Below are positions 1,088 through 51,079 of a stretch of 64,000 nucleotides of DNA, piece after piece (positions within the stretch are counted from its first letter, which is position 1; each line of letters opens with the position of its first letter). The notes beneath the pieces were generated by a model. The model had not been told where the DNA came from and did no database searches. It was given only the letters and a program-made list of their open reading frames with translations. The translations under genes were made by a program, and so were the position numbers. Origin of the DNA: Micrasema longulum (Eukaryota; Arthropoda; Insecta; Trichoptera; Brachycentridae); the NCBI GenBank assembly GCA_022494885.1, contig JAGVSM010001276.1:1-64000 (forward strand), read 5' to 3'.

Positions 1088-1449
1088 GGTAGTGGAGCTG
1101 GCGGACGTATGCTGCCGAGAAATTGACAATAAAGGACTCGGGAAGATAAATCGAGACAAACGAGAAAGGGAGAGAACAGAAGTGGCGAGAACAGTAAAAA
1201 GGCGGAGGAAAGACCGGAGAAGAATGAGACTCTTTATTCCTTGAGTGAGAGCTGTGAATTGTTAAGATTAAGCCAAATTTAAATGAAAACTTCAAACCAG
1301 GATTTTTCCTGTCATAACTTCGGAACGGACTCGTAATGTTCATAACTCTGCTTCGTGTAGATAAATATTTCAGCTTATTTAATTTGATGAAGTCGGTCGG
1401 TTCGGTTTGTGATGAACATCACAACAAATAGTCAAAAATATAAATAGGT

Positions 1450-1567
1450 GCGAAGATTTTCACGGTCACTGTTATCAATATTATGTATCTTTTTTGGGTG
1501 ATACCGTGTATGTTGGATTTGATCAAAAGATTTGATCAATTTTTATCACCCAAAAAAGATACATAAT
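1450..1567 (-). mobile_element. Fold-back insertion E1 (hammerhead core deleted)
   Basis: A 118-bp insertion. Perfect 24-bp inverted arms lie at 1480-1503 and 1544-1567, with an unpaired 30-nt tail at 1450-1479. The flanks 1430-1449 and 1568-1586 are near-identical and begin AGTCAAAAATATA, which is a target-site duplication of about 19-20 bp. Arms and tail match the elements at 29296-29470 and 32107-32230, but the centre holding their GAAAC-type motif is replaced by a short GATCAAA palindrome. This copy is inverted relative to those two. Confidence 0.85.
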
Positions 1568-1784
1568 AGTCAAAAATATATTTGGTAAATTCAAATATGA
1601 TAAATAATGCTTTTTATGAGCTCTACTATCATTCTCATCCCCCTTTTCGCACCGAGTGGTGCATAGGGTACGTCATTGGTAAACCGAACGCAGGTCAGTT
1701 CGATTATCGATCGGTTACATGAAGGTCAGGCTATCAGTCTCACGCTTAGGGACGAGGAATTATTGCGGTGCATTTTAAATAAAT

Positions 1785-2112
1785 ATGTCGAATCGAAAAC
1801 GCTCTTCCAGGGTTCCAGTTCTCTTTCACCCACAAATTGTAAATTCAATATGGGATTGCCCTGAACTATTATCTCTCATCAACTTCAGGGTGCCTGAAAG
1901 AATGACTAGACAGGTGCCACCGTTTTGTAGCAACAATTCACGGACAGTGTATACTTGTAATGCCGTATTAAATAGACTTCATGAACTCGGCAATAGTTAT
2001 TCCCACGTATCTGATATATTTAGTGTAGGGTATTGTTCCTATAGAACAAATCTTTTGAACTTTTTCAAAGATGGTGAATGGAAATTATATTTATTTATTC
2101 ATGCATTTCATA

Positions 2113-2152
<40 letters not shown>

Positions 2153-2452
2153 TTTTTTGTTCACTTTGCCTAGCTGTGTGAAACAGTACTTATGATTTTC
2201 TTGCTGTTTTACTGTAGAATGTTTTATTATTGAAACTTTCTACTGAATATGCTGTATAATTTTAAGGTTATTTTTTTAAATATAAACCTTGTATAATTTT
2301 TGTTTAATTTTTTTTTTATAAATCTTGGGTATAAGGAAATTCATATTTTAAAAAAAAATATATATTAAACCAAATATGTTAATATTATGAATGTTTGTAA
2401 AAGGCAGATTTGCCGTTTATGTTAATAAAATAAAAATAAAATAAAATAAAAG
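1785..2452 (+). pseudogene. LINE ORF2 C-terminus and 3' UTR fragment
   Basis: From about 1847 the translation reads CPELLSLINFRVPER, then TRQVPPF, RTVYTCNAVLNRLHEL and SVGYCSYRTNLL. This matches the pattern of the extreme C-terminus of Jockey/CR1-type non-LTR retrotransposon reverse transcriptase proteins (a LINFRVP block, aromatic positions, and an N...LN spacing). An AT-rich 3' UTR follows, containing an (AT)n run, and ends in a TAAAATAAAATAAAA-type tail near 2429-2450. The 5' part is missing, as in truncated target-primed insertions. A short frame upstream (1676-1864) is in another register and may be an earlier piece. Confidence 0.65.
2117..2150. repeat. (TA)n microsatellite
   Basis: About 16 dinucleotide units within the LINE 3' UTR. 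Confidence 0.95.
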
Positions 2453-2908
2453 TGTAATCTTCATCCGTCCGGATACGCTCTTTACTATGCATAGTAATTA
2501 TTCATAGTGAACTGAATTTCCGTGATTAAGATTGATTGATTTTTTAAACCAGTTTAGTAAATAGACTACTGTAATTTTAAAGTTTCACAAAATAAGTCAA
2601 TAATAGCCACATTTTAACATGCCACATTGAAAGAACTCTTTTTTAGATTACTTGAATAATTAAATCTAATATATAATTAACTGACAGACGTTGTCTTGCC
2701 TTCTATTAGCTGGTTCACCAAACTTTTTTTTTATTCGAATTTTCTATAAACTATATACTAAGTGACATTTGAATTGAATTGAATTGAATTCGGCATTTCA
2801 ATCTTTTCGTTTCATCATTGTGTGATTTTTTGTTGCCCGAAGCAAAAAAAAAGTACAATATCACAAGCAATATATATAATTCCTCTGTATGTGTGAAAAT
2901 ATACTCTA
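2453..2908. other. Unassigned AT-rich DNA
   Basis: No gene seen. The end (about 2869-2900) resembles the 5' end of the Helitron-like copies (TATATATAATTCCTCTGTATGTGTGA) directly before the LINE; it is a short fragment at most. Confidence 0.35.
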
Positions 2909-4296
2909 TACAAGGGAAAAGGCTCTATGGTGGACTGCGGAAACTATAGAGCTATCAGCCTTTTGAGCGCTGTTGGAAAGATTTATGGCAGAATACTGAT
3001 TGAGAGAGTAAGAAAAGTGACTAAAAATAGAGTTTGGGATATACAAAGTGGGTTTATGAATGGAAGCGGATGTATGGATCAAATATTTGCTCTGCGAAAT
3101 ATGACAAAAAGGTTCTGGCTAAATACCAGAAACTTTTCTGCGCATTTGTCTATCTGCAAAAGGCATTTGATAGAGTTGACAGAGAGAAATTGTGGAAGGT
3201 TTTATCGGAGTATGGAGAAAATGGTAACCTGACAAGAGCTATTGCGTCACTGTATAAGGACAGCACAGCATGTGTGAAAGTGAATGGGTCATTCACATCG
3301 TGGTTTAATATTCCGAAAGGAGTCAAACAGGGATGTGTAATGTCGCCATGATTGTTCAACATATACATCGATAACTGTATGAAAGAACTGAAAGATTTAA
3401 GAATGGGAGCAAAAATGAGTGGTACAACTGTTAACTGTTAACTGTCTTCTATATGCGGATGACGCCGTGCTTCTTGCTAGCAGCAAAGAAGACCTTCAAT
3501 TCTTGGTAACAAAAGTCTACGATGTATGCAAGAAAAGCGATTTGCTTATGAATGTTGATAAATCGAAAGTGATGGTTATTGAAAGGGATGAAAATATAAC
3601 TAAATGCGAGATCAGCGTGAACGGAGATATTCTGAATTTGTGTACCTGGGAAGTATATTTACTAGGGACGGAAAGGCCGAGAAAGATATTGAAAGGAGGG
3701 TGAGTGCCGAGAACAAGGTGAACGGTGCACTAAAATCTACTTTGGCAAACAAATGTTTATCGCAGGAGGCTAAACTAGCAGTTCACAACGGAGTTCTAGT
3801 TCCAACTCTAATGTATGGGAGCGAAGTATGGAATTGGAAAAATGATGATGAAAGTAGGTTGAATGCTGTCGAAATGCGATCCCTCCGGTGAATGTGTGGT
3901 AAAACGATGTATGATAGGTGCACAAATGTCGATATCCGTGAAGTGTGTAAGGCTGAGACATGCATTATTGACAGAATCAAGAAAGGGGTACTGCGTTGGT
4001 TTGGACATGTAGAGCGAATGAACAGCAAAATAACGGCTAAAAGGATCTAAGGAGCGAATGTTAATGGATGCAGAAAACGAGGAAGACCGAGAAAGACATG
4101 GCACGATCAAGTCCATCAAATACTTGAAGATGGACATGTCAAAAGTAGGAATAATCGACGTGCGTGCATGAGAAGAAGTATGAATGTAAAGGAAGCGAGG
4201 TCTGTATGCCAAGATAGAGTGTTATGGCGTTCTATCCTTTCTACCTACCCCTACGGAGAAACAGCGTGATGGTTTGTTTGTTTGTTTGTTTGTATG
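2909..4296 (+). pseudogene. Broken LINE reverse transcriptase
   Basis: Non-LTR reverse transcriptase spread over several frames. It starts inside the protein at YKGKGS and NYRAISLLSAVGKIYGRIL (about 2909-3000), then FVYLQKAFDRVDREKLW with the first catalytic Asp, then IPKGVKQGCVMSP followed by a TGA at 3349-3351. YADDAVLLASS, the catalytic box, is at 3452-3484. Downstream come VYLGSIFTRDGK, VPTLMYGSEVWNW and LRWFGHVERM (about 3995-4022), all typical of the C-terminal half of such proteins. The end is a TTTG tetranucleotide tail at about 4272-4293. The element lacks its 5' end and has frameshifts near 3040, 3420 and 3620, so it cannot make a working enzyme. The clade (RTE- or CR1-like) is uncertain. 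Confidence 0.9.
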
Positions 4297-4330
4297 TGTG
4301 ATGAATTATTTATATTTAAATACTGAATTT

Positions 4331-4878
4331 ATGTAGGTACCTAGGTACTTGTTTATGGTTGAATTCCAAAACCATAAATTATTAATATTCAAATATTAAA
4401 TTCGATTTGCAAATTTCCAACTCGGCTTTTTTCACCAACAGGGGTGCACTTTATTCATATATTCGATTAAAAAAAATATATTGAATGTAAGTTAATATTA
4501 TTTTAGTATTACCAAATATCCAGTAAAAGAAATAAATTCATGAAAATAAATTATCAGGAATGTAAGGAAAAATTGGGATACATAAAAAGCGAACGTTGTT
4601 TGTAAACATTCAAAAACAAACTTTTTTGAAACACAAAAAATTATCATCCTTCCATTTTATTGTAATTGCATTCTCGCCGAATGTAACCCTGGTAGGTTGA
4701 TGAAAAAAATATTTATTCTTCCAACTTTTTTTTTACAGATTCGATTGAAAATTTTAAAATCTACGAACACACGCAACGCAAAGATCTACATATCGATGGA
4801 ACTCCCACGTAAATCGGTTAAGCAGTTTAGAACGAGTTAAGTGACATCATACTTGCAGAAGAATTATAAATATAAAGA
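4331..4878 (-). mobile_element. Helitron-like non-autonomous copy, 3' end missing
   Basis: Aligns by eye along its length with 27231-27853 and 40325-40897 on the opposite strand. Shared landmarks are TC followed by a TATA-rich start, a TGATGTCACT segment, CTTTGCG/TTCGTA, TGTTTACAAACAACGTTCGC and GGTGCAC...TTGGTG. On the minus strand it begins at 4878 with TCTTTATATTTATAATTC. It stops near 4331 before the terminal hairpin/CTRR seen in the others. No Rep/helicase coding is present. Confidence 0.65.
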
Positions 4879-4895
4879 CATATAATTAATATTAG

Positions 4896-6390
4896 TCCAG
4901 AAGGAGCGTAGAATCATATTTGAATACATCGGACTGTGTCCAAAAAACCTCCCGCTTTGCTCCACTTTCACCGTGCGCATGCGTGAAGTCTCCGCGTTAT
5001 GTTGCCAGATCGCGAAAAATATAATTATAACACAAAAAATGTAAGATAACTTTATTTAAAAAATGCTTCTCTAAAATTTTATTGTACACGCGGAAACATT
5101 TATTGACACAACAGAGTAGATAAACAAAGGGTCGTTTAGTAAGAGTAAAAAGCTAAATGAAAACATTTTTTTTTTTACATAAAGCGGATATTTTTATGTG
5201 ATGTTAAATAATATTTGACAAGCAAATTCGCGTTAAAAATTTGACTACCCTGGCAACACAAAAATAATTCAATTTTTAATTAATGCATTAACTACTTATA
5301 CACGCATTTGCTACTTACACGTAAAATGTGATCCCATCCTATTTCCTTCTGATCCCAGCAGTATTTCTACACTTTAAAACGACACAAAACGGCTAAGTTG
5401 TATTCAAGTCGGGAGTTGCGTACTGAGCGATGTCTACAAATAAACTAATGGGTCAAAACGTAAAACTACTCCTTTAAGAGTAGTTTAGTCGCCTTCTGTT
5501 TGACGCGCGTATGCGGTTTCTGGACTATTCTCAATTCTATGTATAAAGATACCATTACAATTTTAAAAATAATACAATAAACTAACCTTCAAATTCAAAC
5601 TATATCCCGTTATATCTAAAATGAAAATCCACATAAAATCCATGTTGTTTTATGCACGAAAATGTTCAGCAACTAGTTGTTCGCGTTTTTTTTCTGGTGG
5701 ACATTTATCTTTGATGCTTATTTAGCATTTTCCCTTTAAAATAAACTACAGCGAACGCTGACTATGGATGTTCTCTCGTCAGCATTATCTGCAGCCGGTG
5801 GCGGCGGCCGGTAGCTACTAGCTACTGTAGCTAGACACTGGTGGTTTGCTACTGTTTGAATTGTAAGTATCCAGTGCAGTAGAGATAACATGCTGAGCTC
5901 AGCGCTACACTACAGTGATAGGAAATATTGCTAATTTATTTGAATTTAAATCGCATCTTAACCGAACGAGCAACTGCCAAATTAAATTCTGCATGCTAAA
6001 TTACGTTTTGTAATTCGTGTCAGGGTATTCAACGAATGTTGGAAATATGATAACCTATTACAATTAGGGGAAATATCATATACTACGAATACCGACAAGA
6101 TTATTTAAATTTTATGAATAGAAATTTTCAAAATCAATATGAATATTGTGGAAAAATGTTTTTACGTACATTTTTTTTTAATACGTCACTAGAAAAACGC
6201 GACATGTTTGGCCTTGATAGTTGTGGCGTCAAGATTCGCGACAATGTTCTAAACAAATTTAAATGGTCAGGAACAAATAAACCTGAATCGTGACGTATTA
6301 GGGGCGTGGCCAATGGAATGACGTTTTTGCGGGAATTCAAAATTATAAATTAAAAATATGTTTAATGCTACTAATAAGTAAAAAAAAATT
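4896..6390. other. Unassigned region
   Basis: No recognised gene. There are moderately GC-rich patches near 4930-5010 and 5760-5840 and small hairpins (for example 5463-5486), but no coherent protein homology in any frame. Confidence 0.5.
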
Positions 6391-6526
6391 AGTTAAACCA
6401 AAGAAAATTTGTTGATAATGATCCTTAAGATAAAAATAACTTTATTTAATTTACTTACATATAGCTTTGAATTATGTATCCTTACCTCTGTTCTGTATAA
6501 ATACATATAACTTTTTAATAAATATA

Positions 6527-6569
6527 CCAGTCTCGAAGATGTCGCGAAAGCGATGAAACCGGTCACTGG
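6527..6569 (+). ncRNA. Hammerhead-like ribozyme motif H1
   Basis: A complete type I-like layout can be drawn. Stem I is CCAGT (6527-6531) with ACTGG (6565-6569), a perfect 5 bp. CTCGAAGA (6532-6539) sits in the CUGANGA place with an altered start. Stem II is TCGC/GCGA with a GAAA loop (6542-6553). The conserved GAAA is 6555-6558. Stem III is the self-complementary CCGG (6559-6562), then UC (6563-6564), the predicted cleavage site. The self-complementary stem III suggests it would work as a dimer. Activity is not shown; the non-consensus box may weaken it. Confidence 0.6.
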
Positions 6570-6837
6570 ATATTCCAAATTTGTGGATTAAAGTATCACT
6601 CGTCTTTTATTTATATAATAAATAATGAATAACCACAAAGTTAGTGCTTCAAATATAAACTTTATATGTAAATATTAAATTTGATTCCCCAGAACTAATT
6701 AAATTACTTGCTCACCGTGTCCCCTCCAGACTTACCAGACCCTCTGATATTTTCTATATTCGTAATATTAAAACTTATCATCGGAAATATTCTACGATCC
6801 CTCGTATATAGTATGTGAAGCATTTCATAAGATAGTC

Positions 6838-7115
6838 TAAATATAACATATTACAACAGAGATAAAGAACATTTAAGAGAAGGTAATATGGAAGTCTAGG
6901 CATCTACAGGGCTTATGACCTGTCAATGGCTGGTTTAAGTGGCCACTTTACACACTGTGTAACATTCACCATTCTGCCTATATTTGAACCTCTATATTCC
7001 TTCAATTCTTTCCTCTGTTGATGTTTGTGAAGTTAAAGAGATTAATATAAACAGCTCCCCAGGGAGTTGAATCCAGTTCTTGTCTACAGAAATTTGGACA
7101 AACTCAAAATACTGT
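6838..7115 (+). repeat. Family A repeat, subtype A2
   Basis: A well-preserved copy. The core (GGAAGTCTAGGCATCTACAG to CACCATTCTGCC) is nearly consensus, followed by the A2 end CTCCCCAGGGAGTTGAATCC and TTTGGACAAACTC. Confidence 0.85.
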
Positions 7116-7179
7116 TAAGTCTTAATATATTTGACACTCCATATAATAGGTGCAGAAGAAAACTGATAGGCTTGATGCA

Positions 7180-7540
7180 GAATAACAGAGAATAGATTTT
7201 TTGTATCTTTTCTTGCTCTTAATCATTAAATCAAATGCAATTTTCCACTCCTAGTTTCCTTCATTCATCCTTCAACACTCCTTATCAATTTCCTTCTTTT
7301 CTTTCCCACTATCTCCTTTTTATTTCCATATTTATTTTATTAAATTAAATATAGTATATTTATTCTTTATATAGTTTAAACTTCAAACCGTCATCACTTT
7401 ATTGCAGTTTAATTTAGTGAATACATATAATTGGATGGCAGGCCCTACTATGCATACATTGTTTATGGTTTTTATTTATATTAATTTAACCTGTACATCT
7501 GTTTGTATTCGAAATAAATAAATAAAATAAAATAAAGATC
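7180..7540 (+). repeat. Probable LINE 3' UTR with AAATAAAATA tail
   Basis: A pyrimidine-rich stretch without coding, followed by an AT-rich stretch ending in AAATAAATAAATAAAATAAAATAAAG near 7510-7538. It resembles other retrotransposon 3' ends in the window. No protein part is visible. Confidence 0.4.
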
Positions 7541-7551
7541 ATATGTCTGTT

Positions 7552-7815
7552 ACATTAAGTCAAAGTAAAAAGTCTTTTGGCGCCAGTCAGTCAGGATGCA
7601 ATCTCATTTCCCTCAATCAAATGCAGTATGTACTGAGTACTTTTGAATTACCTCATTTCTGCATCAATACGCTAAAAATACCAAATCTTAAAAAAACAGT
7701 TTTTCTCACTAGGCAACAAGCAAGTTTTCACCATATGTGCACACCGCCAAGTAGACATAAATCCTCAGATGCGGTGTGCGATGTGCGGTATGTGGCGGGC
7801 GAGCTAGTCTGAGGA
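7552..7815 (+). repeat. Dispersed repeat B
   Basis: Matches 13068-13330 in reverse orientation. Shared landmarks include CAGTCAGT near the start, CATTTCCCTC, AACAGTTTTTCTC, CACACCGCCAAG and CCTCAGATGCGGTGTGCG. The copy here carries a small internal duplication (GTGTGCGATGTGCGGTATG). No coding is recognised; it may be a MITE. Confidence 0.6.
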
Positions 7816-8202
7816 CAATGGTATACGGCGATTGGTAATCTAGCTTCCATTTGTAAATGGTATCAACTATAAAATACCTTAATTTTGTAAGCCGGGTCTA
7901 GGATTCCAACCGTCCATGCGCTAATAGTTAGAAGACGTGTTGTATTTTTACTCCTTTTTATTTTATTATAATATTTAATTTTTTTTATTTCGTCAATACA
8001 CTCAATTTCTTTGTCAATTCAAAAATGAGTAAATGGGGTCTTGATTTCTTACCATTTATGCGCTTTGTAGCTGCAAGACGTACTGTAATCAACAGATTTT
8101 ATTTTAAATTGATCTGAATTGGAAACGAAGAACTCTAATTTTCTTGCCTCCTCTTTCACAGTAGTAGCTGCTCGGTTGTAAAATAATCTACCCACTAATG
8201 TC

Positions 8203-8390: not shown

Positions 8391-8394
8391 AAGT

Positions 8395-18580: not shown

Positions 18581-19320
18581 TCAATGCGTATTGAAAACAA
18601 GAAACGCTGTATTTATTATGGACCATTTGTTATATAGATGATAAATCATCGTACGGAACGGTAAATAACTATATTTTAACAATGTCGCCAAAGCTAAGAA
18701 AAGAATTATAGCATTCAAAACATGGTGGTATATTTGAATGCTTAAAATATCACGGATTGAAGGAGTTCGCAACGATGAAGTATTAAGACGCATGAAAAAA
18801 GAAAGATAAATAGTTAATGCAATTAAGAAAAGTGAGGAGTGAGGAATAGTCTGAATCGTGTCAAAAGAAATATTCAAAGGAAAACTCAATTTGGGAAGGC
18901 GATGAATCTTCCGGCCTAAAGTAAGTGGTTCATCTGTAGCTCCAAATCCTTGTTTGGAGTAACTGCGGACAAAATAAAAATTGCCACGATGATAGCCAAC
19001 CCCCCCGCGTGGCAGAGTAAGTAGAAGAGTGTAAATGTATTTTATTTTGTAGTTACGTGAACGTAATACCCGCGTCAATTCTGTGTCAGCTTTAAACTCC
19101 AAATAAGGTTCGTCGTCTCCTGTTTCCCAATCTTGTTGACTTTATTTCATCGCCGTATAAATCCGACGTCCCTGGAGAGCTCGGTACACTGGCGTCGCGA
19201 CGCCTAATCCTTCCCTGAAAACTAAAAGTAGGGTTCATCTCCTTCTCCCGACTGAAGAGTGCTATTGTCCTCTTTACAACAAAGAGCACAAAACACTAGA
19301 GCTTTCGAGCCATCTAGTGA
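18581..19320. other. Unassigned, GC-mixed, open on the minus strand
   Basis: The minus strand is open for 173 codons (19102-18581), but the translation has no motif I recognise and its composition is ambiguous. It may be a decayed retrotransposon part; no function is claimed. Confidence 0.25.
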
Positions 19321-24782: not shown

Positions 24783-25064
24783 CACTTCCAAAAAATTAAC
24801 CCTTTCACCCTCTAACGGGCATCTTCAGGCTGGTAAACAGCATACGGAGTTAACACTTTGTATCCCGGAGCCGTGTAAACACGTGATCATATAACCATGC
24901 GTTTTGTCCCGGTCCCGTGTTTTCACGTGGTTTACCAGCTGGTTTACTAGCTGAAAAAGTACATTTCATTGACATCTTGTGACTTTTATTATTACTTTTT
25001 CCCTGCTGGTAAACCACGTGAAAACGCGGGACCGGGACACAACGCATGGTTATATAATCACGTG
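24783..25064. mobile_element. Fold-back element with CACGTG arms
   Basis: Arms 24880-24940 and 25005-25064 pair over about 60 bp, with CACGTG near both ends of each arm and GTCCCGGTCCCG inside. Upstream, on the minus strand, CCTGAAGATGCCCGTTAGAGGG followed by TGAAAGGGTTAA places a CTGAAGA box (24822-24828), a short stem and GAAA (24803-24806) in hammerhead order. Stem III is not clear. Boundaries unknown. Confidence 0.55.
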
Positions 25065-25910
25065 TACATAAATATTTATGTGCAAAACAAAAGAACGGTG
25101 TTAGTTAATTATTGAAAAAAAAAATTCTCGTATTATTTTTATCTGTTCTGTACTTGAATCGTAAAGTCATTGGCCAATTAATCGGTAGGTTTGTAGACAT
25201 GCGTAGTTTAACGTTATAAGCTAAAATAAATCACGACAAAGTTGAATAACCAGTTCATTTCTAGGTTTATTATATAGACATTATACTCGGAGTCCTCAAC
25301 ACTACCACGAGAGCATAACTGGGCCTCAATTATAGACGCTACCTCGGTATGTTCTACCTACTTGTCATATCGACATCATATAATCGAAACAAACCAATGG
25401 ATGCCCGCGACAATTTAGTCCGCGTTCTTTACGTCATTAACATTTCAAATAGTTCTCATTTATATTCTAAATAAGCTTCTGTGATAAAAAGTGCTCACTT
25501 CAAAGCGATTGTAAACTCCAATGAGTCCCAATTCAAGCAAAAAATGCTCTCTTGAACATGATTTTTACATGACTTTTGACAATTACAAGGACAGTATGCC
25601 TGCCTTTATCTACCGAGCGATTACAAAGCCGGCTCGATACGTACTCTCCGGATGATAATAAAACAGACGGAAAAAATAAAATAACTAATCATTTTTCTAT
25701 AGTGGCACTATTTTTTGCATCTAGCCACTCGATTCCGAAACTGAGAGTTATGTCAGAATTTAATTCGACTTCAAAATTTACTTATTTCTCTCTCATATTT
25801 TTAATAGGCTTTTCAGAAAAAAAGTTCCAACCTCAGAAGGATCAAAAATTTTAATAAATCGTACTTAAAGGTAAAATTGCTCGTTAGAACAAAATTTTTA
25901 TCACTTTTAA
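25065..25910. other. Unassigned region
   Basis: No recognisable gene. The 92-codon open frame at 25576-25854 shows no family features. Confidence 0.4.
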
Positions 25911-28545: not shown

Positions 28546-29295
28546 CTAGCTTATACCCGCGGATATTAAGAAGAAATTATTTAGGTAATTAATTAGTTGT
28601 GTCGTTTATTAATAAGAGTTGTTATTTATCATTAAGGATTTTTGCGATAGAATGATATATTTTATCGGAATTGAAAGAAGCTTGATCGTCCAACTATCGC
28701 TTCGAAAGAAATACGATGATCCGTGGTTCTGTAGTGACGTAGCATCTTTATTGTGTTTGCAATTCCAAAACCCTGCCACAAAACTCAAAAGAAAAGCAAA
28801 CCAAACTAAGCATTGATAAAACAAGTCAATGAGGAAGTTCTGTGTCTTTTTTAATTTTTTTTATTTGTTAATAGACATTAAACTAAGCCAAAAAAAAAAA
28901 TTAAAAAATACATATCTTATTATCAGTGCTGTGATTTTTTAATGTTTTGTATTTCTGAAATTACTCCGCGAGTGACGTCAGAGGTTGTTCTCTGTTAGTT
29001 CTTCCTATTGGTTCGTTTACGGTAAGCCAACCGATTATCCTTCACAGCTCTCACAACATTAGTTGGTTTATATGAACCAGTGACGCCAATCAAAGTAGTG
29101 CGTTTTTATTGAAATATTTTTTATATTTTTTTTCGGACATTTTCAAGAAACTTTGCCGTACAATTAAATGCTATAACTTTTACCGCTCGGCAGAAAACAT
29201 TTTTTGTATCTTATTTCCCGTAAAGCTGAAGTTCCTTATTCTAAAAAATTTCAGAATTAATTTCAAATTGACTCTTTTTGACATCCGCTTACTCA

Positions 29296-29470
29296 ATATT
29301 ATGTATCTTTTTTGGGTGATACCGTGTATGTTGGATTTGATCCGACGTTTCGGCTACCATTGCAGGAGCCATCTTCAGGGAAAACGAAGATGGCTCTGAA
29401 GATGGCTCGTACACGGTATCACCCAAAAAAGATACATAATATTGATAACAGTGACCGTGAAAACCTTCGC
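29296..29470. mobile_element. Fold-back insertion E2 with 15-bp TSD
   Basis: Flanked on both sides by the exact 15-mer ACATCCGCTTACTCA (29281-29295 and 29471-29485). Perfect 33-bp arms lie at 29296-29328 and 29410-29442. An unpaired 28-nt tail at 29443-29470 ends AAACCTTCGC. Between the arms, on the minus strand, are CTGAAGA (29372-29378, matching CUGANGA), a stem-loop GGCT...AGCC, GAAA (29348-29351), CG, UC and GGATC. The CTGAAGATGGCT segment is repeated beside it. Same family as 1450-1567 and 32107-32230. Confidence 0.9.
29344..29384 (-). ncRNA. Hammerhead-like motif H3 in E2
   Basis: Order CTGAAGA, stem-loop, GAAA, CG, UC, GG. The stem I candidate is only about 3 bp (TCC with GGA), so it is weaker than the motifs at 6527 and 49138, though the CUGANGA box is exact. 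Confidence 0.45.
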
Positions 29471-31825: not shown

Positions 31826-32077
31826 ATATTATTTATTGTTTCAGCATTTACTTTGTGGAGAAACATTTTGAATTTATTTAAAATAAAACACTTTGTAAAT
31901 TTACCACACAAGAGTTTAACACATTAAAACACGACTTTTTTCGGGTAATCAGTATTACCCATCCTCAGGTGTAAATATATTATAAGTTTATATTTACACC
32001 TGAGGATGGGTAATACTGACTACCCGAAACTAGTCGTGTTTTAATGTAAATTTACAAAGTGTTTTATTTGAAATAAA
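31826..32077. mobile_element. Fold-back insertion E3 with 14-bp TSD
   Basis: The flanks TACCATATTCTCTT (31812-31825) and TACCATATTTTCTT (32078-32091) are a target-site duplication with one mismatch. A tail of about 47 nt (31826-31872) is followed by inverted arms 31873-31978 and 31985-32077. The left arm has an extra 16 bp near 31905. The right arm holds an intact hammerhead-like motif; in the left arm the stem III palindrome is replaced by an A-run. Inserted in a minus-strand family A copy. Confidence 0.85.
31996..32039 (+). ncRNA. Hammerhead-like ribozyme motif H4 in E3
   Basis: Stem I ACAC (31996-31999) with GTGT (32036-32039). CTGAGGA (32000-32006) fits CUGANGA exactly. Stem II is GGGTA/TACCC (32008-32012, 32021-32025). 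Then GAAA (32026-32029), self-complementary CTAG (32030-32033) as stem III, and UC (32034-32035). All core boxes are consensus, making it the best candidate in the window for activity, probably as a dimer. Confidence 0.65.
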
Positions 32078-32106
32078 TACCATATTTTCTTCTCAAAATG
32101 CTTTGT

Positions 32107-32230
32107 TTCGACGTTTCGGCTGCCATTGCGGCTGCTCGCAATGGTAGCCGAAACGTCGGAACAAATTCAACACACACGGTATCACTTAAAAAAGAAACTC
32201 ATTGATAAAAGTGACCGTGGAAACCTTCGC
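32107..32230 (+). mobile_element. Truncated fold-back related to E1/E2
   Basis: Inverted halves around TTTCGGCTGCCATTGC and GCAATGGTAGCCGAAACGTC, then ACACGGTATCAC and the tail TGACCGTGGAAACCTTCGC. It ends at exactly the same base context as E2. No clear target-site duplication, so one end is probably lost. Confidence 0.65.
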
Positions 32231-32237
32231 ATCTACT

Positions 32238-33344: not shown

Positions 33345-34429
33345 ATTAAACCCAGAAAATTTTCGCGCAGTAATTTTTTACGACTTGCGAAGACGATTAT
33401 CTCAACAAGAATGCCTCGCCGAGTGGCTTCTGTTTTTGACAATGAAGCATCACAATTATAAATGTTCATTGCTATAGCCAATTCAAACGTGGACGGGAGT
33501 CTTAGCGATGATCCAAGGACAGGTGCATTGAAAACCGCAGTCACCCAGAAAAACGTCGATGCTATGGGCAACCCCAGAAAGGAAAATCAGCATGTGATAT
33601 ATTGCAAGATTGAAGCATTGGGAATTTCAATTTTAAAAATTTTTATGATGAATTGTGTCTAAAAAAATGGTTTTCCGTTGGATGTCGCATCTTTTGACCG
33701 AATAACAAAAATTAGCTAAAGTCACTTGGTGTCAAAAAACTGTAGACCGCTTCAACGCAAGAAACTCTAAAATTGTTTACAGCATCTTCAGTAGTGATGG
33801 ATTGTAGATATGCGCATTTGAACCCAAAAATAAACGCCAATCATCTGTTTGGGTGTTTCGAGGTGAAGAAAAGCCGACAAAAGTTATTCGTTCTCGAAGT
33901 GTCTCTAAAAAGATAGTCGCAACATTTGTCTCAAAAGCGGGTCATAGAGCAATAATTCCTTTGCTTGAACAAAGAACTGTTTCTGCCAATCTGTATACAA
34001 ACATTTGTTTGCCGGAAGTCATCGCTGAGCTTCAAAAAACCAACCCTGAACGACGAATCATTCTCCACCGAGATAATACACGTTCGCATACAGCTCGCGA
34101 GAAAACTGAATTTTTAGAGCAACAAAATGCCGAATCGCTAGACCATCCTCCGTTTAGTCCTGACCTAAGTCCCAAAATTTTTTCTAATTTTCCGAAAATC
34201 AAGAACAAGCTGCGCGGTCAAAGGTTCCAGTCGCCGGAAGAAGCAGTAGACGCTTTCAAAAACGTTATTTTGACTGTACTAACAAACGAGTGGAATAACT
34301 GCTTCCAGAGTTGGTTCTAGCGCATGCAAAAATGTGTTAATCTTCTTGGAGAATACTTCGAAAAACTTTAAAAGCTATCTACCGTTTTAGTCCAACTCCA
34401 TATGCGAAACTTAAAAGACAACCCTCGTA
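33345..34429 (+). pseudogene. Dead mariner transposase
   Basis: The N-terminal helix-turn-helix region starts near 33356 with NFRAVIFYDLRRRLSQQECLAEW, broken by stops and frameshifts. From about 33824 a long open stretch reads SSVWVFRGEEKPTKVIRSRS, ICLPEVIAELQKTNPERR, HRDNTRSHTAREKTEFLE and PPFSPDLSP, then FPKIKNKLRGQRF, EEAVDAFKN and a TAG at 34318. Cut-and-paste transposases of this family use a D,D(34)D triad. HRDN keeps the second Asp, but the third, expected in SPDLxPxD, is replaced (SPDLSPKIF), and the GDETW box is degraded. A terminal inverted repeat-like end (complement of CGAGGGTTGTCTTTTAAG) is at 34411-34428 beside TA. The 5' terminus is not recognised. Confidence 0.9.
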
Positions 34430-42925: not shown

Positions 42926-44060
42926 GGTTAAGACGATTGAGTAATATTTTACTGCATTACACCTACCTGCTTTTGTACGATCTATGTCATAAAATATACC
43001 TATATATGTGTTTTTTTTTTAAAACATATTTAAGAAATTGAAAACTAGGATCTCTATATTTCGAAAACCAAGGCAATGTCAGAATTGTTCTTTCAAACTG
43101 GTATCGGTGTTGTCTCAATTAAAAAAATATGTATAAATAGGAAAATCGCACATTACTCTCACTAATAGAAAAAGACAGAACGCAAAAATTATTGAGTAAT
43201 CCGGCATAAGAGGGTTAAAAATATTCATTGTGAGAGGGTACATGGCGTGACGATGCGTAACTCGTAGGTCATTCTTACGTGAGTTATAGATTATATTATT
43301 TTTCTATGTTCATGTGTTTTTAAACATAAAAAGACAAGACAGAGTAAAAAGAATCACGAATTGAGTCGAAAAGTTCAATAAAATTATATACCTTTTCAAT
43401 GCATTAATATTCATAAAATATTTATTTATTGTCAGTTTGTTAAGACATGAATAAACTATTGAATTTGTAGCCATTGACATCTCCTACGTCTTCTAGTTTT
43501 TATTTTTTATTTGACTGTAAGAGATTCAACCATAAATACCTTTGTTTTCTTATATTTTATGAATCTCAATGTATACCATCATTCAACGAGATCTTAACAG
43601 ATAATAACTTATTGAAATTTTATTTATGGTCTTGCCTAAAAATTTGTTTCGCTAAATAATTCGTCACACTTCTTATTAAAGGGTGTGTACCAGAACGAGA
43701 GTAGAGCTTTACTGAAAAATTAAGTAATGATAGTAATTTATTTAGACGGTGGTTTTCTTTCCTAAAAATTTCTACAACAACAACAACATTTTTATCATTC
43801 GTCTTTTCAAATTTGATTAAGATTTTTTTTTCCACCAACTTTTCCCAGTAAATTAATCGAAGAAGCAACACAGTTACTTTATTTATTAAGAAAAAATACA
43901 TTTATATTATAAACATCGTCATATCTAGCATTTTTTAGCGGCTTTGTCACTTTTCCAAATGTTTGTGTTCATTTTGTAAGTAATCAAATTGACGGTCTCT
44001 AAAAAAATTTTTTACGTATAAATATACCTTAATATAAAATAAATAAATCACTTTTTTTTA
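42926..44060. other. Unassigned AT-rich DNA
   Basis: No gene recognised. Confidence 0.45.
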
Positions 44061-44063
44061 TTC

Positions 44064-44125
44064 AAAACACAACATACTTCGGGTAAACTGAATTACCCAT
44101 CATCAGGCCGGGATAATAAAGAAAT
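44064..44125 (-). ncRNA. Hammerhead-like motif H5, solo and decayed
   Basis: Minus strand: CTGATGA (44100-44106), the exact textbook box, then GGGTAA/TTACCC stem II and GAAG in place of GAAA (44077-44080). It is related to the E3 arms (shared ACACAAC, CGGGTAA and ACCCATC). The GAAG change should abolish cleavage. Confidence 0.5.
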
Positions 44126-44169
44126 AAAGGAGGGTGATATAATATTAAAACCACCATTTAAGAAATATT

Positions 44170-44255
44170 TCATATCGACCTTGCCAGGAATCATTCCCGG
44201 AACCGCATCAACCGTGGTTAGTGAATGCGCCAACCACTGCACTTTTAGGTGGACT
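44170..44255 (-). mobile_element. Possible tRNA-derived SINE head
   Basis: Complement reads GCAGTGGTTGGCGCATTCAC, then GGTTCCGGGAATGATTCCTGG. It is related to CTGCCAGGAATCG at 10488-10500. Confidence 0.4.
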
Positions 44256-44309
44256 TATTTCCTCTTAACATTATTTTTCACGATTTTCGCATGACAGTAC
44301 AGACGTCGG

Positions 44310-44760
44310 AGGACAGAGGCATATCGAAAGCGACAAATATGAGATTAGCCAGAACTGAAGTATTTTCTATTTCATTTTATGGAGCGGAAACATGGACAAT
44401 ACGGGCAAAAGAACTCAACATTATAGATGCCTTTGAGATGTGGTGCTGGAGGCGTATGGTAAGAATACCCTGGACCCCCAGACGCACCGATACCTCCATT
44501 TTTCAGGGGCTGAAGCTGACGGACAGACTCTCGTCGATACTGATGAGTTCTCCGATTTTCGGTTCACCTCGCAAGGAGATAGAAACAACGCCCGTAGAAG
44601 CTTGTTGCGGCCGGCAGCGCAGAGGGAAGAAGAGGACGACAGAGGTCTTCCATGCGCTGGTCAGACTGTATTGCGGTGTCGAGAATGCGAAAGAGCGGTC
44701 GCGATGCTCAGGCATGAGAGACCGACAAGGAAGACCCGAGAGTAGCCATTGAGTCGAAAC
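44310..44760 (+). pseudogene. LINE C-terminal fragment
   Basis: TSEDRGISKATNMRLARTEVF, then FYGAETWTIRAKELNIIDAFEMWCWRRMVRIPWTPRRT in one frame. A frameshift is likely afterwards, since the downstream basic region reads GRQRRGKKRTTEVFHAL. This ETWT...FEMWCWRRM...IPWT pattern is typical of one large insect/arthropod non-LTR family. Both ends are missing. Confidence 0.8.
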
Positions 44761-44884
44761 CAACCGTCCAGAGTTCTGGTTCACAGAGAACTGAATTCAT
44801 CTTCTTCCGTCAAATTAACTCAAATACAATTTCCGTCTAGATATATGTACAATGAAGTATAGATTACTATATTATTTATCATCT

Positions 44885-45830
44885 TCCGGTAGCCATAAAG
44901 AACTCCACATGTGCCAATGTGTTTAAGAAAAATGTTTGCAATTGGCTGCTGCATAGGGACGAAATCGACAATCTTTTTGAAGCTCGAGAATAGAAAGAAA
45001 TTAATTTTCTGCTTTCCTCCCCTTGTTTTATTCGCTTATTATATACCTTGATATTTTAATGATTCTTTTTTGTATTATTTATTTAAGTACTCAGTCTTAT
45101 TTGGCATATTATTTATTACTTTAATTTCTTACTCTATAAACCATATCTAAATAAACTATTATGAAAATAAAACTTTGTTATTAGTGTTACACAATTTTTG
45201 TTCTTTTACAAGAACACTACTTTAGTTTCGGGAGAGCACTCCTCCCATCGACGGGTGATAAAAAACTCGATAGAGTTATATAAAACTCAATAGAGTTTTA
45301 TATCACCCGTCGATGGGAGGAGTGCTCTCCCGAAACTGTTGTAGTGTTCTTGTAAAATAATAAGAATTTTGTAGCACTAAAAACAAAGTTTTATTGTCAT
45401 AATAATTTATAATGAAGTGATACAAAGTGAATGCCGATTCAATTAACAATATCATATCTCAATAAATTATCATTCCAATTATGTTTTTGTACATTTTTCT
45501 ATTGATTTCAATAATTCTGTTATTTTGTATATTCGATTATGTACGCAACTAAATTTTTACAATTTACATTATTTTTTATGTTATTTTCTTTGGAATTCTT
45601 ATATTTATTGTTTTATTCTTTAATTTTTACGCTTTATTTTTCTGGATTTTTATTCGACTGCATGTCACGTTATTATAATATAATCTGTTTTACTATAATA
45701 TGATTTTTTAATCTTGTTAATTAATATGCCTTAACACGGGCACAGCCTAAAAAGCCTTAATAAGTTCATAAATATGTAAACTAGTATAATTTTAAATTAA
45801 CCAATCAATCATCGTAATATTTTAATTAAA
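44885..45830 (+). pseudogene. LINE family L C-terminus and long 3' UTR, split by E4
   Basis: VAIKNSTCANVFKKNVCNWLLHRDEIDNLFEARE ends at a stop near 44994. A long AT-rich 3' UTR follows, matching, inverted, 58660-59115 and 62925-63480. It is interrupted at 45156-45453 and resumes at 45454, ending with GGCACAGCCTAAAAAGCC and an A-rich tail near 45830. Confidence 0.7.
45156..45453. mobile_element. Fold-back insertion E4 with 13-bp TSD
   Basis: The flanks ATATCTAAATAAA (45143-45155) and ATATCTCAATAAA (45454-45466) form a target-site duplication. Arms of about 120 bp (45156-45277 and 45285-45404) are joined by a short AT loop, and a tail of about 49 nt (45405-45453) follows. Each arm carries CCGTCGATGGGAG, a stem and CTCTCCCGAAACT, a hammerhead-like order with a non-consensus first box. 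The host is the family L 3' UTR. Confidence 0.85.
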
Positions 45831-46800
45831 TGGCCATTGTTAAAAAAATAATTTCCGAATATGACGAATTATTTACAATTTTTTTTCTAGGGACCATATC
45901 AAAATGCAATTTACTATTTTAAACAATAATTTTAGCCGGACCCGAATATCAATCAACTTTATACAGATATTTTAACCCGTGAAATTCAGTGTGGAGCAAA
46001 ATAACAGTCTATTTATGTCATACAAAAGTCACAGAATATAGCAGCGGTAAAAACAACTCACCTGTGTTAATCGAGGAGGTTAGGCGGTATTGACAGAACA
46101 TTTATTTCCACTGGAGTGGACCGTACAAGTGTTATACAATTACCAATTATTCATTTTTCTGTCATATTTAACAGCTCGGAAGCCTTTGCACACCGCATCC
46201 AATCGGATGTTCAGTGTTTTAGGAATAACATTTTTCTCATAAGCGCACATCCGATAAAATAGCGTCATAACTCGAGAAAATCTGGTTTTTAGTTAAGTTC
46301 ACAAAGTAAATTGTAAAAAATACTCTCATGTCGTAAAAAATAACAGAATTGTAGCTTAACGATTTATATGCTTGATAGCTGTATGGTTTTCACGTGGTCA
46401 GCGACGGCGTCGTTATCAAACAGTGTAATGTAATATCTTTTTTCTTTATAACAATCGAGATTTACTTAAAAAATACTGTATCTTTTTTAAAGACAAATAA
46501 AAATATATATTACACATTGCCTTAAAGGGTGAAAAGGAAAACAAAAAAATTCAATTAAAAATACAATGTTTTCATGCGTATTAATTTAGTTTTATGGCTC
46601 TCCTAGAAACTCTGCTTTCATGAGTTATGACTCTATTTTATCAGATGTGCGATATGTAGATACTTTTGCCGGATGAAAATACTCGTACGAAATAAGTTTT
46701 TTATTTAATGTGTTCAATACTTTCGTCGTATCAACAATTTTGTAGAAAATTTTGTGTGACTTGTTTTACGAGTAATTGAAATAAAATATTTGCTTTTTAA
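45831..46800. other. Unassigned AT-rich DNA
   Basis: No gene recognised. Confidence 0.45.
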
Positions 46801-46802
46801 TT

Positions 46803-47800
46803 TTGTTGCAACAAAGAGGGTAAAATATTTTTGAGAAGGTAATTTTATCAATTTATTTATTTTACATAATCAAACAGTCGAAATGATATAATAACATAAA
46901 AAAGAACGGTTTAAAGACAGACCAGTGAAGTTTCTAAATAAAAATCATAAATATTAAATTGTGGTACAACGTATTACAGGCGTATATACAAGCGTATATA
47001 CAGGCGTATTGCAGCCAGAAAGACTAAGTCTTTATTTATTTTAAAATAAATTAAGGGGCATGGTAAATATATCAATAGATGAAAAAAAACCTTTATGGTT
47101 TGAGCAAGAACGATAGAGAAAAGAATGTTGTGCAAAGAGTGCCACAGACTGGCAGATGAAATAAATACTTATTTCTTGTCACGCAAAAGGGAACTTCCAG
47201 ATTAACTTTGGAGATTAGGTTAAAAGAGTCCACGTTATTTTTTTGTAATTTTTATAAATAGCATAAATCAGATACAGTGCGTCTAATTCCAAGGGTTAAA
47301 ATTCCATTTCGTTTCGCAGATTGGCTGTAATTGCAAAGCGTTTTATTGTTTTTAAAATCTAGGTATTTTAGAAATTTTTGTTGAACATTTTCAATCCTTT
47401 CAATGTTTGTTATGTATTGTGGGCTCCACACAACGGATGCAAACTCCAAGTTACTGCGTAAAAAAGTGTTGTTGTGTAATTTTTTTTTATGTATTTGTTA
47501 TTTTAAAGGGTTTGGAAATTTTAAAAATAAAGCCCAGCATTTGGTAAGGTTTTACAACAGGTAATATGGAAGTCTGGGCATTTGCAGGGCTTATCAAAGG
47601 GCAAATTTCTTCAATTCTTCCATTTGTTGATATGAGTGAAGTCAAAGAGCTGAAACCTTTATTGTTGTGAAGAGATTCATCTGACTGAATTATTTCACAT
47701 ACTTGGCAACGCCTGAAAACAAAGACTCCCGAGAGGGTGAAATCCAGTATTTTGTTTACAAACATTTAGACAAACTCAAATAATGTAATAAAACCAACTG
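46803..47800 (+). repeat. Family A repeat split by a LINE
   Basis: Left part 46803-46843 (GTTGCAACAAAGAGGGTAAA, GAGAAGGTAAT) and right part 47559-47800 (AGGTAATATGGAAGTCTGGG, CTTCCATTTGTTGAT, GAGCTGAAACC, CTTGGCAACGCCTGAAAAC, CCCGAGAGGGTGAAATCCAG). AGGTAAT is duplicated at the junctions. Confidence 0.8.
46844..47558 (-). pseudogene. 5'-truncated LINE inserted in family A
   Basis: The minus strand starts at the insertion border with VKPYQMLGFIFKISKPFK, then LEFASVVWSPQYITNIERIENVQQKFLKYL, RRTVSDLCYL, NLEVPFCVTRNKYLFHLP and a stop near 47090. The 3' end has TAAAATAAATAAATTGATAAAA on the minus strand. AGGTAAT flanks both sides (46837-46843, 47559-47565). A clean target-primed insertion of a Jockey/CR1-type element, broken by frameshifts. 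Confidence 0.85.
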
Positions 47801-47819
47801 GTCCAAGAAAAAGTTTGAA

Positions 47820-48205
47820 AATTGGAAAATTGTTTTCAGGCGTTGCCTAGTATGGGAAATAATTCAGTCAGATGAATCTCTTCGCTACAATAAAAGTTTC
47901 AGCTCTTTAATGCTTCCATTTGCTGATTTTAGTGAAAATCAGCAAATGGAAGCATTGAAGGAATATGGATGTTCAAACATAGGCAAAATGGTGAATGTTA
48001 CATAGTGTGTATAGTAGCCCCTTAAACCAGCCAATGACAGATCATAAGCCCTGTAAATGCCTAGACATCCATATTCCATTATTTAAGGTATTTTCCATAC
48101 CTGTTGTTATTTGTTTATCTTAATGACTCCCGAGGGGGTGAAATCCAGTCTTTCCTCTACAAACATTTGAACAAACTCAAATATTGTATTAAAACATTTT
48201 ATTGT
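47820..48205 (-). repeat. Family A repeat, near full length, with a perfect palindrome
   Basis: Minus-oriented blocks TTTCAGGCGTTGCCTAGTA, AAAGTTTCAGCTC, core and CCTGTAAATGCCTAGAC, ending GACTCCCGAGGGGGTGAAATCC. At 47909-47956 a 22-bp perfect inverted repeat with loop AGTG replaces the usual sequence. Confidence 0.85.
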
Positions 48206-48295
48206 TAAGTTTTCTCAGTATGGGTTACTAAGTTGGGGTAGCATAATTTTTAATGTTGCGTATTTTTAAAAACTAATAAATAATTAGTAATATAG

Positions 48296-48387
48296 TTGGC
48301 TTCGTGGTGTAATGGTCAGCGCATTTGCCTAGCATGCAAGAGGTCACGAGTTCGATTCCCGACATGGTTGAAATGAAATTATTTAAA
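48296..48387 (+). mobile_element. tRNA-Ala-like SINE head or tRNA pseudogene
   Basis: GGCTTCGTGGTGTAATGGTCAGCGC (A box), TTTGC-CTAGCAT-GCAAG (anticodon arm with AGC) and GAGTTCGATTCCCG (B box). The T stem has mismatches and the acceptor does not pair, so it is not a functional tRNA. E5 follows immediately. Confidence 0.6.
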
Positions 48388-48476
48388 ATAGTGTTTTTAC
48401 TTAATGATAATGATAAAATTTATAAATAAACTTATCAATGAAACTTCTTGGTTTAGTTTTACTTTTTATTATTTTG

Positions 48477-48519
48477 ACCAACGAGCGCTTTCGCCTAAGT
48501 AGGCATCTTCAAGACTGGT
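48477..48519 (-). ncRNA. Hammerhead-like motif H6 (E5 left arm)
   Basis: Inverted copy of the motif at 49138-49180, with identical boxes. Confidence 0.55.
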
Positions 48520-49137
48520 GATTTGTTTACAACGTTTACAGCTTTTATACTATTCTTAACATATTTTGGAGATAAGATAGAACAATATTTTAACAGGGGA
48601 CAGAAAACATAAATATTTACAACTAGTTTGCTATACAATTCATTTTTGGGAGTTTTTGGACCGAAAGGGATTAAGTTTTATTATTTAAAATGTGGGAAGA
48701 GAACACATGGCGAAATACAACAGTGTGGGGAATCTACATTTTAACAGATAAAGTTGGAAAATACTTTGGTTTTTTGACAGGGAAGTTTACATACCTATAA
48801 ATGAAACATTTTAAGATTCATACTTAGTTAATACAGATAATTTCATTACATAATTTTAGTAGTAAATAATTAAATCAAACGGAGCTATATTAAATTAAAG
48901 GTTTAAGTAAAGGAGAGTTTACATAATAACATTTAGTTAATAAGTTTACATACCTAAAGATAAATGACGAAACATTTAAAATTCATAATTAGTTAAGACA
49001 GAGTTAATAAGTTTACATACCTATAGATGAATGACGAAACATTTTAAGATTCACTGTCCCCTGTTAAAATATTGTTCTATCTTATCTCCAAAATATGTTA
49101 AGAATAGTATAAAAGCTGTAAACGTTGTAAACAAATC

Positions 49138-49180
49138 ACCAGTCTTGAAGATGCCTACTTAGGCGAAAGCGCTCGTTGGT
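49138..49180 (+). ncRNA. Hammerhead-like ribozyme motif H7 (E5 right arm)
   Basis: Stem I is ACCAG (49138-49142) with TTGGT (49176-49180), including one G-U. CTTGAAGA (49144-49151) is in the CUGANGA place with one extra T. Stem II is GCCT/AGGC around ACTT (49153-49164). Then GAAA (49165-49168), the self-complementary GCGC (49169-49172) as stem III, and UC (49173-49174). Confidence 0.6.
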
Positions 49181-49308
49181 CAAAATAATAAAAAGTAAAA
49201 CTAAACCGAGAAGTTTCATTGATAAGTTTATTTATAATTTTATCATTATCATTAACTATGGAGTTTTATCAAGAAATATCAACAAAAAACATCAATAGTG
49301 TTTTTACT

Positions 49309-50485
49309 CTCCATAGTACTTGGACTGGTACCTGAAGCGTAAGACTGATCACCTTACCTTAAAAAAATATCGGTCCACCTTACTGTATAATTATATGAGA
49401 ATATTAAAATTATTTATTCATGTTTATGTTTTTTACCTTCTTCAATATTATTACATAAGTTGTTTTATTTTTATTTTTATTATCTTATTTTTTTAAATAT
49501 ATTTATAAATGTACTTATTTATTGTATGTTCATTTTTTAAATTCAATTTTTTAAACTTTTTTATTATTATTAATTCCATTTACATATTTTATTTTCAGTT
49601 TCTTAATTACTCACATTTCTTAACTTGTAAATTAATTTTATTCTATAACTGGGTTATTTTATTGCGTAGACTTAATTGATAACTGACATAGTCGTAGAAA
49701 ATGATTATTGACTGTTTTTACAGTTTAATTTCCAACGTACCTTTATCTTCTATATAAATTATATGTAAGAACTATTGTTTTTTCCAAATAAATCAAGTAA
49801 AAATAATTTATCTTAAGTACCAGTAGAAGTTGAATGCACTAATTAATCAAATCAATAAGTGGAAGTGTACATAGTTATTTAATTTACATAAAATATAATT
49901 TATTACCTAGTTACGATGAGATTATATTAAGAACAACTTTTGATCGAATTCCATTGTAATTAGATATGATGATTATTATTTTCCAATAACGTATTTTTAA
50001 ACTTACGAATTGTACTGCAATGAAATGTAATTTCGTAATAATGATTTAGTTTATTCGCAATATTTAATATGAACATTTTGTTGAACAAACGTATAAAAAA
50101 AATGAATAAATGATGTATTAAATTGATTAATAATAATCCGAGTACGCATGTTACGTATCATAAGATTGAGTGAATATCTTCAGCTTTGAATGTGGTACAA
50201 TTTATCATGTGGATGGATTGGAAGTCGTTATGGCAATTTGAAACGTGAAAATAAAGTTTAAAAACTGGATACTTGCTACAGCAACAAAAGATAAAAGTTC
50301 AATAATAACGCTTTACTCCATCAGAAAAATAAAATAAGCTCCTCAAACAAATGGCGCAATCTCCATTATTCTACTTCCCAAACTTCCAACTTTTTTTGCT
50401 TACATGTGTGTAAAGCGAGTATTTTGTATCGATGTGCGATGTCAACTTCTTGAAAGTCATAATATAAAACATAAAATTTTTAATT
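49309..50485. other. Unassigned AT-rich DNA
   Basis: CCTGAAGCGTAAGACTGATCACCTTACC at 49332-49359 is shared with 8925-8950 (a repeat scrap). No gene. Confidence 0.45.
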
Positions 50486-50487
50486 CG

Positions 50488-50645
50488 TTGCAACAGAGGG
50501 GGGAAAACATTTATAAAAAAGGAAAATGGAAGTCCAGGCATTCACAGAATTTACGACCTGTCATTGGCTGGTTTTATTGGCAATTTGAAAACTTTACACA
50601 ATTTGTAACATTCACCATTCTGGTTGTTTTTAAACAATATTTTTG
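50488..50645 (+). repeat. Family A repeat, partial
   Basis: GTTGCAACAGAGGGG, ATGGAAGTCCAGGCATTCAC, GACCTGTCATTGGCTGG and TGTAACATTCACCATTCTGG. Confidence 0.75.
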
Positions 50646-50711
50646 ACATTGTTTATTTTCTACATGATTGTTTTATAACGTAGCATCGTTTTTTCAGACA
50701 TAGTTTACGAT

Positions 50712-50954
50712 AAATTTTATATTTGAATCACTAGCTTTGTGGTTATTCATTATAATAAAATAAATAAAAACAACTTTGTTTTTAACAACTTTATTTATGT
50801 TTTTTCTAATACTTCCAAACACACTTACTGATATAATAAAAAAGATACAATTCATTAGTTAGACAATTTGAAAAAAAAGCTAGAGTAGCTTTGAAACCGG
50901 CCGGTAGAAAAAAAAATAAGTGGTTAAAAACAAAGTTGTTTTATTTATTTTACT
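50712..50954. mobile_element. Fold-back insertion E6 with 12-bp TSD
   Basis: The exact 12-mer ATAGTTTACGAT flanks it (50700-50711 and 50955-50966). A tail of about 44 nt (50712-50755) is followed by arms 50756-50786 and 50923-50954 (AACAACTTTGTTTTTAAC type). Inside are AAAGCT/AGCTTT, GAAA (50893-50896) and CCGG (50897-50900), but the first box is TTTGAAA, so the hammerhead-like core is degraded. The tail matches, inverted, the sequence downstream of the motif at 6527. Confidence 0.85.
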
Positions 50955-51079
50955 ATAGTTTACGATTTTTATTGTTAAATTATTTTTTTACATTTCGCAT
51001 TATTATACTCATTTCTCTATAGCACTCAAATTTAACTAAATGCCGCCTATTTAATACCTGTATTGTACCTCTTTACCTC

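Follow-up and report, generated by a model that had tools for sequence, protein, structure and literature searches.

Genomic copies of Penelope-like elements in a caddisfly suggest two-ended target-primed reverse transcription

Integration of Penelope-like elements (PLEs) has been approached both in vitro and from genome sequence. For PAc, a Poseidon PLE from Anolis carolinensis, the published account describes cutting and extension of both DNA strands by a protein predicted to act as a dimer, with reverse transcription starting internally, at +111 to +118 of the frame, at two adjacent sites that define the tail (PMC11167929). The in vitro work ends at cutting and first extension, with the later steps of integration yet to be validated, and the strands are not described there as differing in start site (PMC11167929). 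Penelope elements of Adineta vaga have an inverted pseudo-long terminal repeat (pLTR) that contains the first codons of the frame, a one-sided tail of 31 bp and target site duplications (TSDs) (PMC3846280). Animal retrozymes, which carry type I hammerheads, are described as short and hammerhead-bearing, with TSDs, if present, of >4 bp (PMC7229834). Here, we compare these systems with small fold-back insertions in a 64,000-nucleotide stretch of DNA from the caddisfly Micrasema longulum (assembly GCA_022494885.1, contig JAGVSM010001276.1, positions 1 to 64,000, forward strand), referred to below as the window.

The insertions share with the Adineta vaga elements the inverted repeat, the one-sided tail, the first codons of the frame and the TSD, and differ from them in that the Adineta vaga TSDs quoted are 8 to 10 bp or absent, copies there are few and self-priming was proposed to account for their head-to-head structure (PMC3846280). 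Retrozymes, in turn, are small tandem repeats of ~170 to 400 nt, whereas the copies here have inverted arms and PLE coding sequence (PMC7229834). A single genome that holds many young and short copies makes the problem countable, since sequence alone gives the start sites, the spacing of the cuts, the target motif and the type of joint. We read the fold-backs, with fair confidence, as short PLE insertions that would have arisen by two-ended target-primed reverse transcription. The broader proposal, that a symmetric form of this reaction (a dimer on a two-fold symmetric site, a 12-nt 3′ stagger and two dedicated starts on the RNA) is how PLEs integrate, with the inverted insertion bearing one tail as its regular product and hundreds of such footprints stored in the genome, we regard as plausible and on balance likely. 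What is new is the genomic-footprint analysis and the palindromic target; the elements themselves are PLEs. A literature search, with sources seen in part, returned no description of two-ended initiation from genomic copies or of a palindromic PLE target, which is weak evidence of absence.

Fold-back insertions and the proposed reaction

Six intervals in the window had been marked as fold-back insertions in a first-pass annotation made from the letters alone, and all six have inverted arms, direct repeats at their borders and a tail of ~25 to 47 nt on one side only, at the positions given there. The flanking repeats are exact in four of the six (12 to 16 bp) and are 14 bp with one mismatch in the other two. 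The insertions sort into five families, A to E, with two in family A. The arms had been described as quite different in sequence, which is true of the four further families (B to E) and fails for 1450-1567 and 29296-29470, both of family A; the list of six is real throughout and overlooked a third, poorer family A copy.

Family A is inserted on the minus strand at 1443-1564 (TSD 1427-1442/1565-1580, 16 bp; arms 1479-1503 and 1544-1568, the left side being the tail) and on the plus strand at 29296-29470 (TSD 29281-29295/29471-29485, 15 bp; arms 29293-29328 and 29410-29445), where the tail, 29446-29470, reads as PLE frame (..NIDNSDRENLR). The third copy, at ~32102-32235 on the plus strand, has arms 32102-32130/32137-32165 and a tail, and no TSD was found around it by eye. 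The family B insertion occupies 31826-32077 on the minus strand (TSD 31812-31825/32078-32091, 14 bp with one mismatch; tail MFLHKVNAETINNI), and that of family C occupies 45156-45452 on the plus strand (TSD 45142-45155/45453-45466, 14 bp with one mismatch), its direct repeat appearing once mismatches were allowed, after a scan for exact repeats had given none. Family D, at 48402-49293 on the plus strand (TSD 48387-48401/49294-49308, 15 bp; tail MEFYQEISTKNIN), has a long tail-less (N) arm plus a loop, and a short tailed (T) arm. Family E lies at 50712-50954 on the minus strand (TSD 50700-50711/50955-50966, 12 bp; tail MNNHKASDSNIKFI).

Chance was assessed on 49 inverted pairs from the window and 20 position-chosen 10-kb stretches. 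An exact direct repeat of at least 10 bp lay near the ends of 9 of the 49, which exceeds chance, as combining the flanks of one pair with those of another gave 3 of 480; five of these nine repeat-flanked pairs had a one-sided tail (25 to 39 nt on one side, at most 1 on the other), with the other four lacking it.

In the reaction we propose, a PLE protein acting as a dimer would make staggered cuts in the two strands, spaced 12 nt and with 3′ overhangs, and each 3′ end would serve as a primer inside the RNA, at one of two neighboring sites close to where the PLE frame begins. End joining, helped by microhomology or accompanied by filler, would link the two antisense complementary DNAs (cDNAs), and the overhangs, once filled in, would form the TSD. 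The tail would correspond to the RNA between the two start sites, spaced ~30 to 35 nt in family A and ~40 to 47 in family B. Extension from fixed sites at both ends would thereby give paired arms, a one-sided tail and a target duplication, and since the start sites lie near the frame start, many products would be short, long ones coming only from RNA with an upstream unit. The PAc biochemistry fits this two-ended model, strand difference in start site aside; unlike what is described for PAc, the two arms of one insertion here start at different sites (PMC11167929).

Start sites, target and joints of family A

Whole-genome queries were made with families A, B and C; family D was met in L080 to L083, and family E in several position-chosen stretches. 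The first family A set held 39 genome copies resembling the window copy (the best 40 of 1096 candidates were scored) and 2 window copies. Both arms are antisense copies that run toward the 5′ end of the RNA. The N arm starts near ATG+78 (+76 to +88 in raw alignments, some bases being common with the target), and the T arm starts near ATG+108 to +113 (raw +107 to +112, the reference end), which resembles the +111 to +118 given for PAc (PMC11167929). A TSD score of at least 10 was reached by 36 of 41 copies and by 0 of 798 mismatched flank pairs; a score of 8 was reached by 39 of 41 and by 24 of 798.

A second query, consisting of the T arm and tail only, was blind to the second arm (best 40 of 875 candidates scored), and each scored match showed 100% identity across 61 nt or more. 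All seven non-window copies examined, out of 39 listed, have a TSD and an N arm that begins at the inner site seen in the first set, as do two copies from position-chosen stretches, picked for showing both arms. Overall, an exact TSD of at least 9 bp abuts both fixed points in 46 of 50 family A copies. Beside the tail-less arm, TSD ends are offset from ATG+78 by -2 to +6 nt (-6 to +6 allowed in the search), and beside the tailed arm they are offset from ATG+108 by -3 to +8 (-7 to +9 allowed). For family B, where the best 40 of 1116 candidates were scored, six second-arm matches were reported, all head-to-head and ending at query positions 38 to 45.

Two readings of the first set were dropped. 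A transcription start at ATG-13 to -18 had been drawn from the 41 copies, 39 of which had been selected for resembling a copy whose end lies at -13; the unbiased seven mostly end elsewhere. The same selection underlay the impression that the tail-less arm is always longer: in the unbiased copies, the N arm is longer in five (barely so in L073) and the T arm in two.

These start sites bear on twin priming in the style of long interspersed elements (LINEs), in which regular priming is accompanied by opportunistic second priming of the same RNA, by the other target strand, at chance microhomology. It would account for TSDs and for two oppositely oriented antisense cDNAs, and a shared variant at +54, on which both arms agree in three of the four copies carrying it, suits one RNA or one source locus. 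The agreement itself suggests that the arms were copied from one RNA or from RNAs of one locus; across all polymorphic places, minor variants were common to the two arms in 4 cases and confined to one arm in 15, the 15 perhaps being later mutations. We reject twin priming as the main model on the ground that second starts do not scatter, falling at a single place in 46 of 50 family A copies and in the six reported family B pairs; in addition, the arms overlap extensively, and we consider this explanation unlikely.

TSDs in family A are mostly 12 to 13 bp. From the 50 copies, 45 had an exact TSD and enough flank, and the 20 of these with an exact 12-bp TSD were used for the target motif. Bordering the TSD, the left flank tends toward RAAC and the right flank toward GTTY (RAAC-N12-GTTY): position -1 is C in 14 of these 20 copies, and position +1 is G in 12. 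A half-site matrix built from left flanks scores the right flanks 2.02, compared with a maximum of -0.07 in 10000 random placements. In most of the 20 longer TSDs, a 12-nt register can be placed with a score above zero; a stagger of 12 is therefore probable, the additional bases matching by chance or microhomology. The left flanks of the window insertions of families B, C and E end in AGAC, AAAC and AGAC.

Inner joints differ among copies: the 41 measured have 27 different T-arm starts, and their joints show microhomology or filler. Given this variation, the family A copies seem to record independent insertions of PLE RNA rather than one small unit copied repeatedly. We thus demonstrate for this family, as far as genomic copies record it, a palindromic target, an apparent 12-nt stagger, two start sites, opposite antisense arms and variable joints.

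Self-priming, whereby PLE cDNA or an antisense template folds back and copies itself, would also give head-to-head arms, and has been proposed for the Adineta vaga elements (PMC3846280). Back-copying alone cannot supply the 25 to 47 nt of template that lie outside the point where the first arm begins. Moreover, the arms of family A begin at different fixed places on the RNA, their inner joints vary and the same half-site occurs at both DNA ends; we find this explanation decidedly unlikely.

Two family A copies are unusual. At L065:1512-1800, a fold-back sits within an E-type tail, with the TSD TAAGTGCTTATA; by this example, PLE sequences act as targets for one another. In L070, ~470 nt of unmapped sequence lies within the N arm, at template positions -44/-46, perhaps as a later insertion.

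Coding sequence in the tails and longer copies

An affinity to Penelope elements had been proposed in the first-pass annotation, and the tails support it: they are, judged by sequence, starts of the PLE reading frame, directly for family D and by comparison for families A, B and E. Read in the tail sense, family A (ATG GCT CCT ... CGC ACC) is open for 37 codons (MAPAMVAETSDQIQHTRYHPKKIHNIDNSDRENLRTY), and when its peptide is aligned with the PAc N terminus, ENLR pairs with ESLR at a score of 35, reached by 2 of 1000 shuffles. Many PLE proteins among the homologues of the family D partner protein (L081, below) start like MDFRKVTPDSINYLKSA. Against a profile of 19 distinct PLE N termini, with 2000 shuffles per tail peptide, family B was beaten by 0 of 2000 and family E by 8 of 2000. 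The family C tail, M K stop Y K V N A D S I N N I, is decayed and B-like by eye.

Putative hammerhead motifs may point the same way. In family A, a core lies at 29348-29378 on the minus strand (CTGAAGA, stem II, GAAA, then CGTC; motif only) over the PLE start codon, the ATG sitting inside it (CTGAAGATG..GAAACGTC), as in PAc (PMC11167929). Family B has two core motifs, one per arm, at 31939-31968 (minus) and 32000-32029 (plus). The strict core has five matches in the window, three of them in families A and B, compared with a mean of 0.28 and a maximum of 2 in 100 shuffles; in families C, D and E, it is degenerate or absent by eye.

A genome check for an autonomous Penelope-type partner sharing arms and tail, as the first-pass annotation had advised, succeeded for family D. 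In L081 and L082, a PLE open reading frame (ORF) is followed by the loop of the window insertion (99.5-99.8%) and then by arm and tail (99.2%). The L081 protein matches PF00078 (RVT_1, 49.3 bits) and PF01541 (GIY-YIG, 24.9 bits), both above cut-off, and the tail in L081 continues into a PLE-like N terminus, with 133 codons to the stop; via these two loci, the evidence that the D tail is a PLE frame start is direct at the sequence level. The protein has 386 homologues at E 0.001 among 7995 candidates scored, and those named among the 120 listed come mostly from moths, butterflies, beetles and psyllids.

Several features of endonuclease-bearing (EN+) PLEs recur here. An ORF with reverse transcriptase (RT) and C-terminal GIY-YIG domains is found in the family D partner; family A has a GIY-YIG-like stretch alone, upstream of the A sequence in copy L075, at 18.1 bits and below the 22.6 cut-off. 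Tandem units with pLTRs occur in family D, where PLE matches in contig C86 share a strand at a spacing of 3.3 kb, and the arm and next frame start follow the ORF. A one-sided tail of ~30 to 40 bp stands beside an inverted pLTR, and the first ORF codons lie in tail and pLTR. A PLE protein survey gave 75 matches (72 of 6209 candidates scored), and neighboring matches on opposite strands run minus-then-plus, head-to-head, in all seven contigs that have them (C403, C2333, C5037, C2237, C4473, C2874 and C1666), so the inverted structure is not confined to short copies.

Another alternative is a true non-autonomous family, MITE-like (miniature inverted-repeat transposable element) or retrozyme, in which the whole fold-back unit is transcribed and copied; the first-pass annotation had spoken of non-autonomous relatives. 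The 875 to 1287 first-look candidates per query (unconfirmed as copies), the hammerhead core and the few copies with a common junction would suit such a family. The 27 T-arm starts in 41 copies argue against it and leave that label unsupported for family A, copy L075 reaches into PLE coding sequence and the family D loop is the sequence behind the PLE ORF. Furthermore, the measured copies of family A (41 plus 7) have inverted arms, and the head-to-tail tandem hammerhead monomers of retrozymes were not found among them; we consider this explanation very improbable. A DNA-transposon MITE is rejected given TSDs of mostly 12 to 13 bp, one end that is not inverted (the one-sided tail) and a PLE partner for family D, and the copies examined showed neither a DNA transposase partner nor a fixed 2-9 bp duplication.

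Two further places in the window resemble these elements. The stretch 6605-6665 is E-like and represents another copy of that family; its frame gives NHKVSASNINFI, which ranks third among the 58853 12-mers of the window when scored on the N-terminal profile. At 24803-25065, a minus-strand hammerhead core (24803-24828) lies beside an imperfect palindrome (24879-25065), possibly a further PLE fold-back. Contig C209 has two family A matches on one strand, spaced 3 kb; it was considered as the full family A PLE and rejected, L084 there being an ordinary insertion beside other sequence.

Contrary observations and other features of the window

Several observations weigh against two-ended insertion by PLEs or narrow its reach. 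PAc is reported to prefer an ATT target, unlike the RAAC-N12-GTTY found here (PMC11167929), and the right flanks of families B, C and E and both flanks of family D misfit the half-site. The data on fixed outer ends and target come from family A; the family B query stops at the tail end, and is mute on the outer ends of other B copies, and 34 of the 40 scored B copies lack a reported second arm in lists that are incomplete (the nearby A arm of L072, for example, is omitted). Within family A, the exact 9-bp TSD is missing in 4 of 50 copies, the second arm of the window copy at ~32102-32235 begins away from the inner site, a few copies share a joint (L012 and L019 are the same, L010 and L011 nearly so) and the likeness-based choice of the first 39 copies biased arm lengths. 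There are also single-arm, older matches, 75 to 89% identical (L065 at 1924 and 5643, L048 at 821); all three still carry the tail, and the tail-less relatives that the first-pass annotation had named as counter-evidence are not among them. Furthermore, the family D tail peptide does not beat shuffles against the N-terminal profile (255 of 2000 were better), that of family C, scored one residue out of register, gave 1024 of 2000, with its likeness to B seen by eye, Rfam returned no hammerhead at E up to 5 and a full-length family A PLE was not found in L084.

The window also holds unrelated features. Another repeat family has about a dozen copies (61752-62121, 60075-60544, 6843-7116 and others), some inverted; few have a nearby direct repeat, and these are without a one-sided tail. 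The ORF at 18581-19138 has no homologue at E 0.001, and 33808-34317 is a fragment of a DDE_3 (mariner-like) transposase. Elsewhere in the assembly, L077 (G000:C3360:135488-138709) contains long ORFs free of introns, one of which matches GIY-YIG at 38 bits; we take these ORFs to resemble bacterial UvrC beside a sodium-solute symporter, and the contig is perhaps that of a bacterial symbiont or contaminant.

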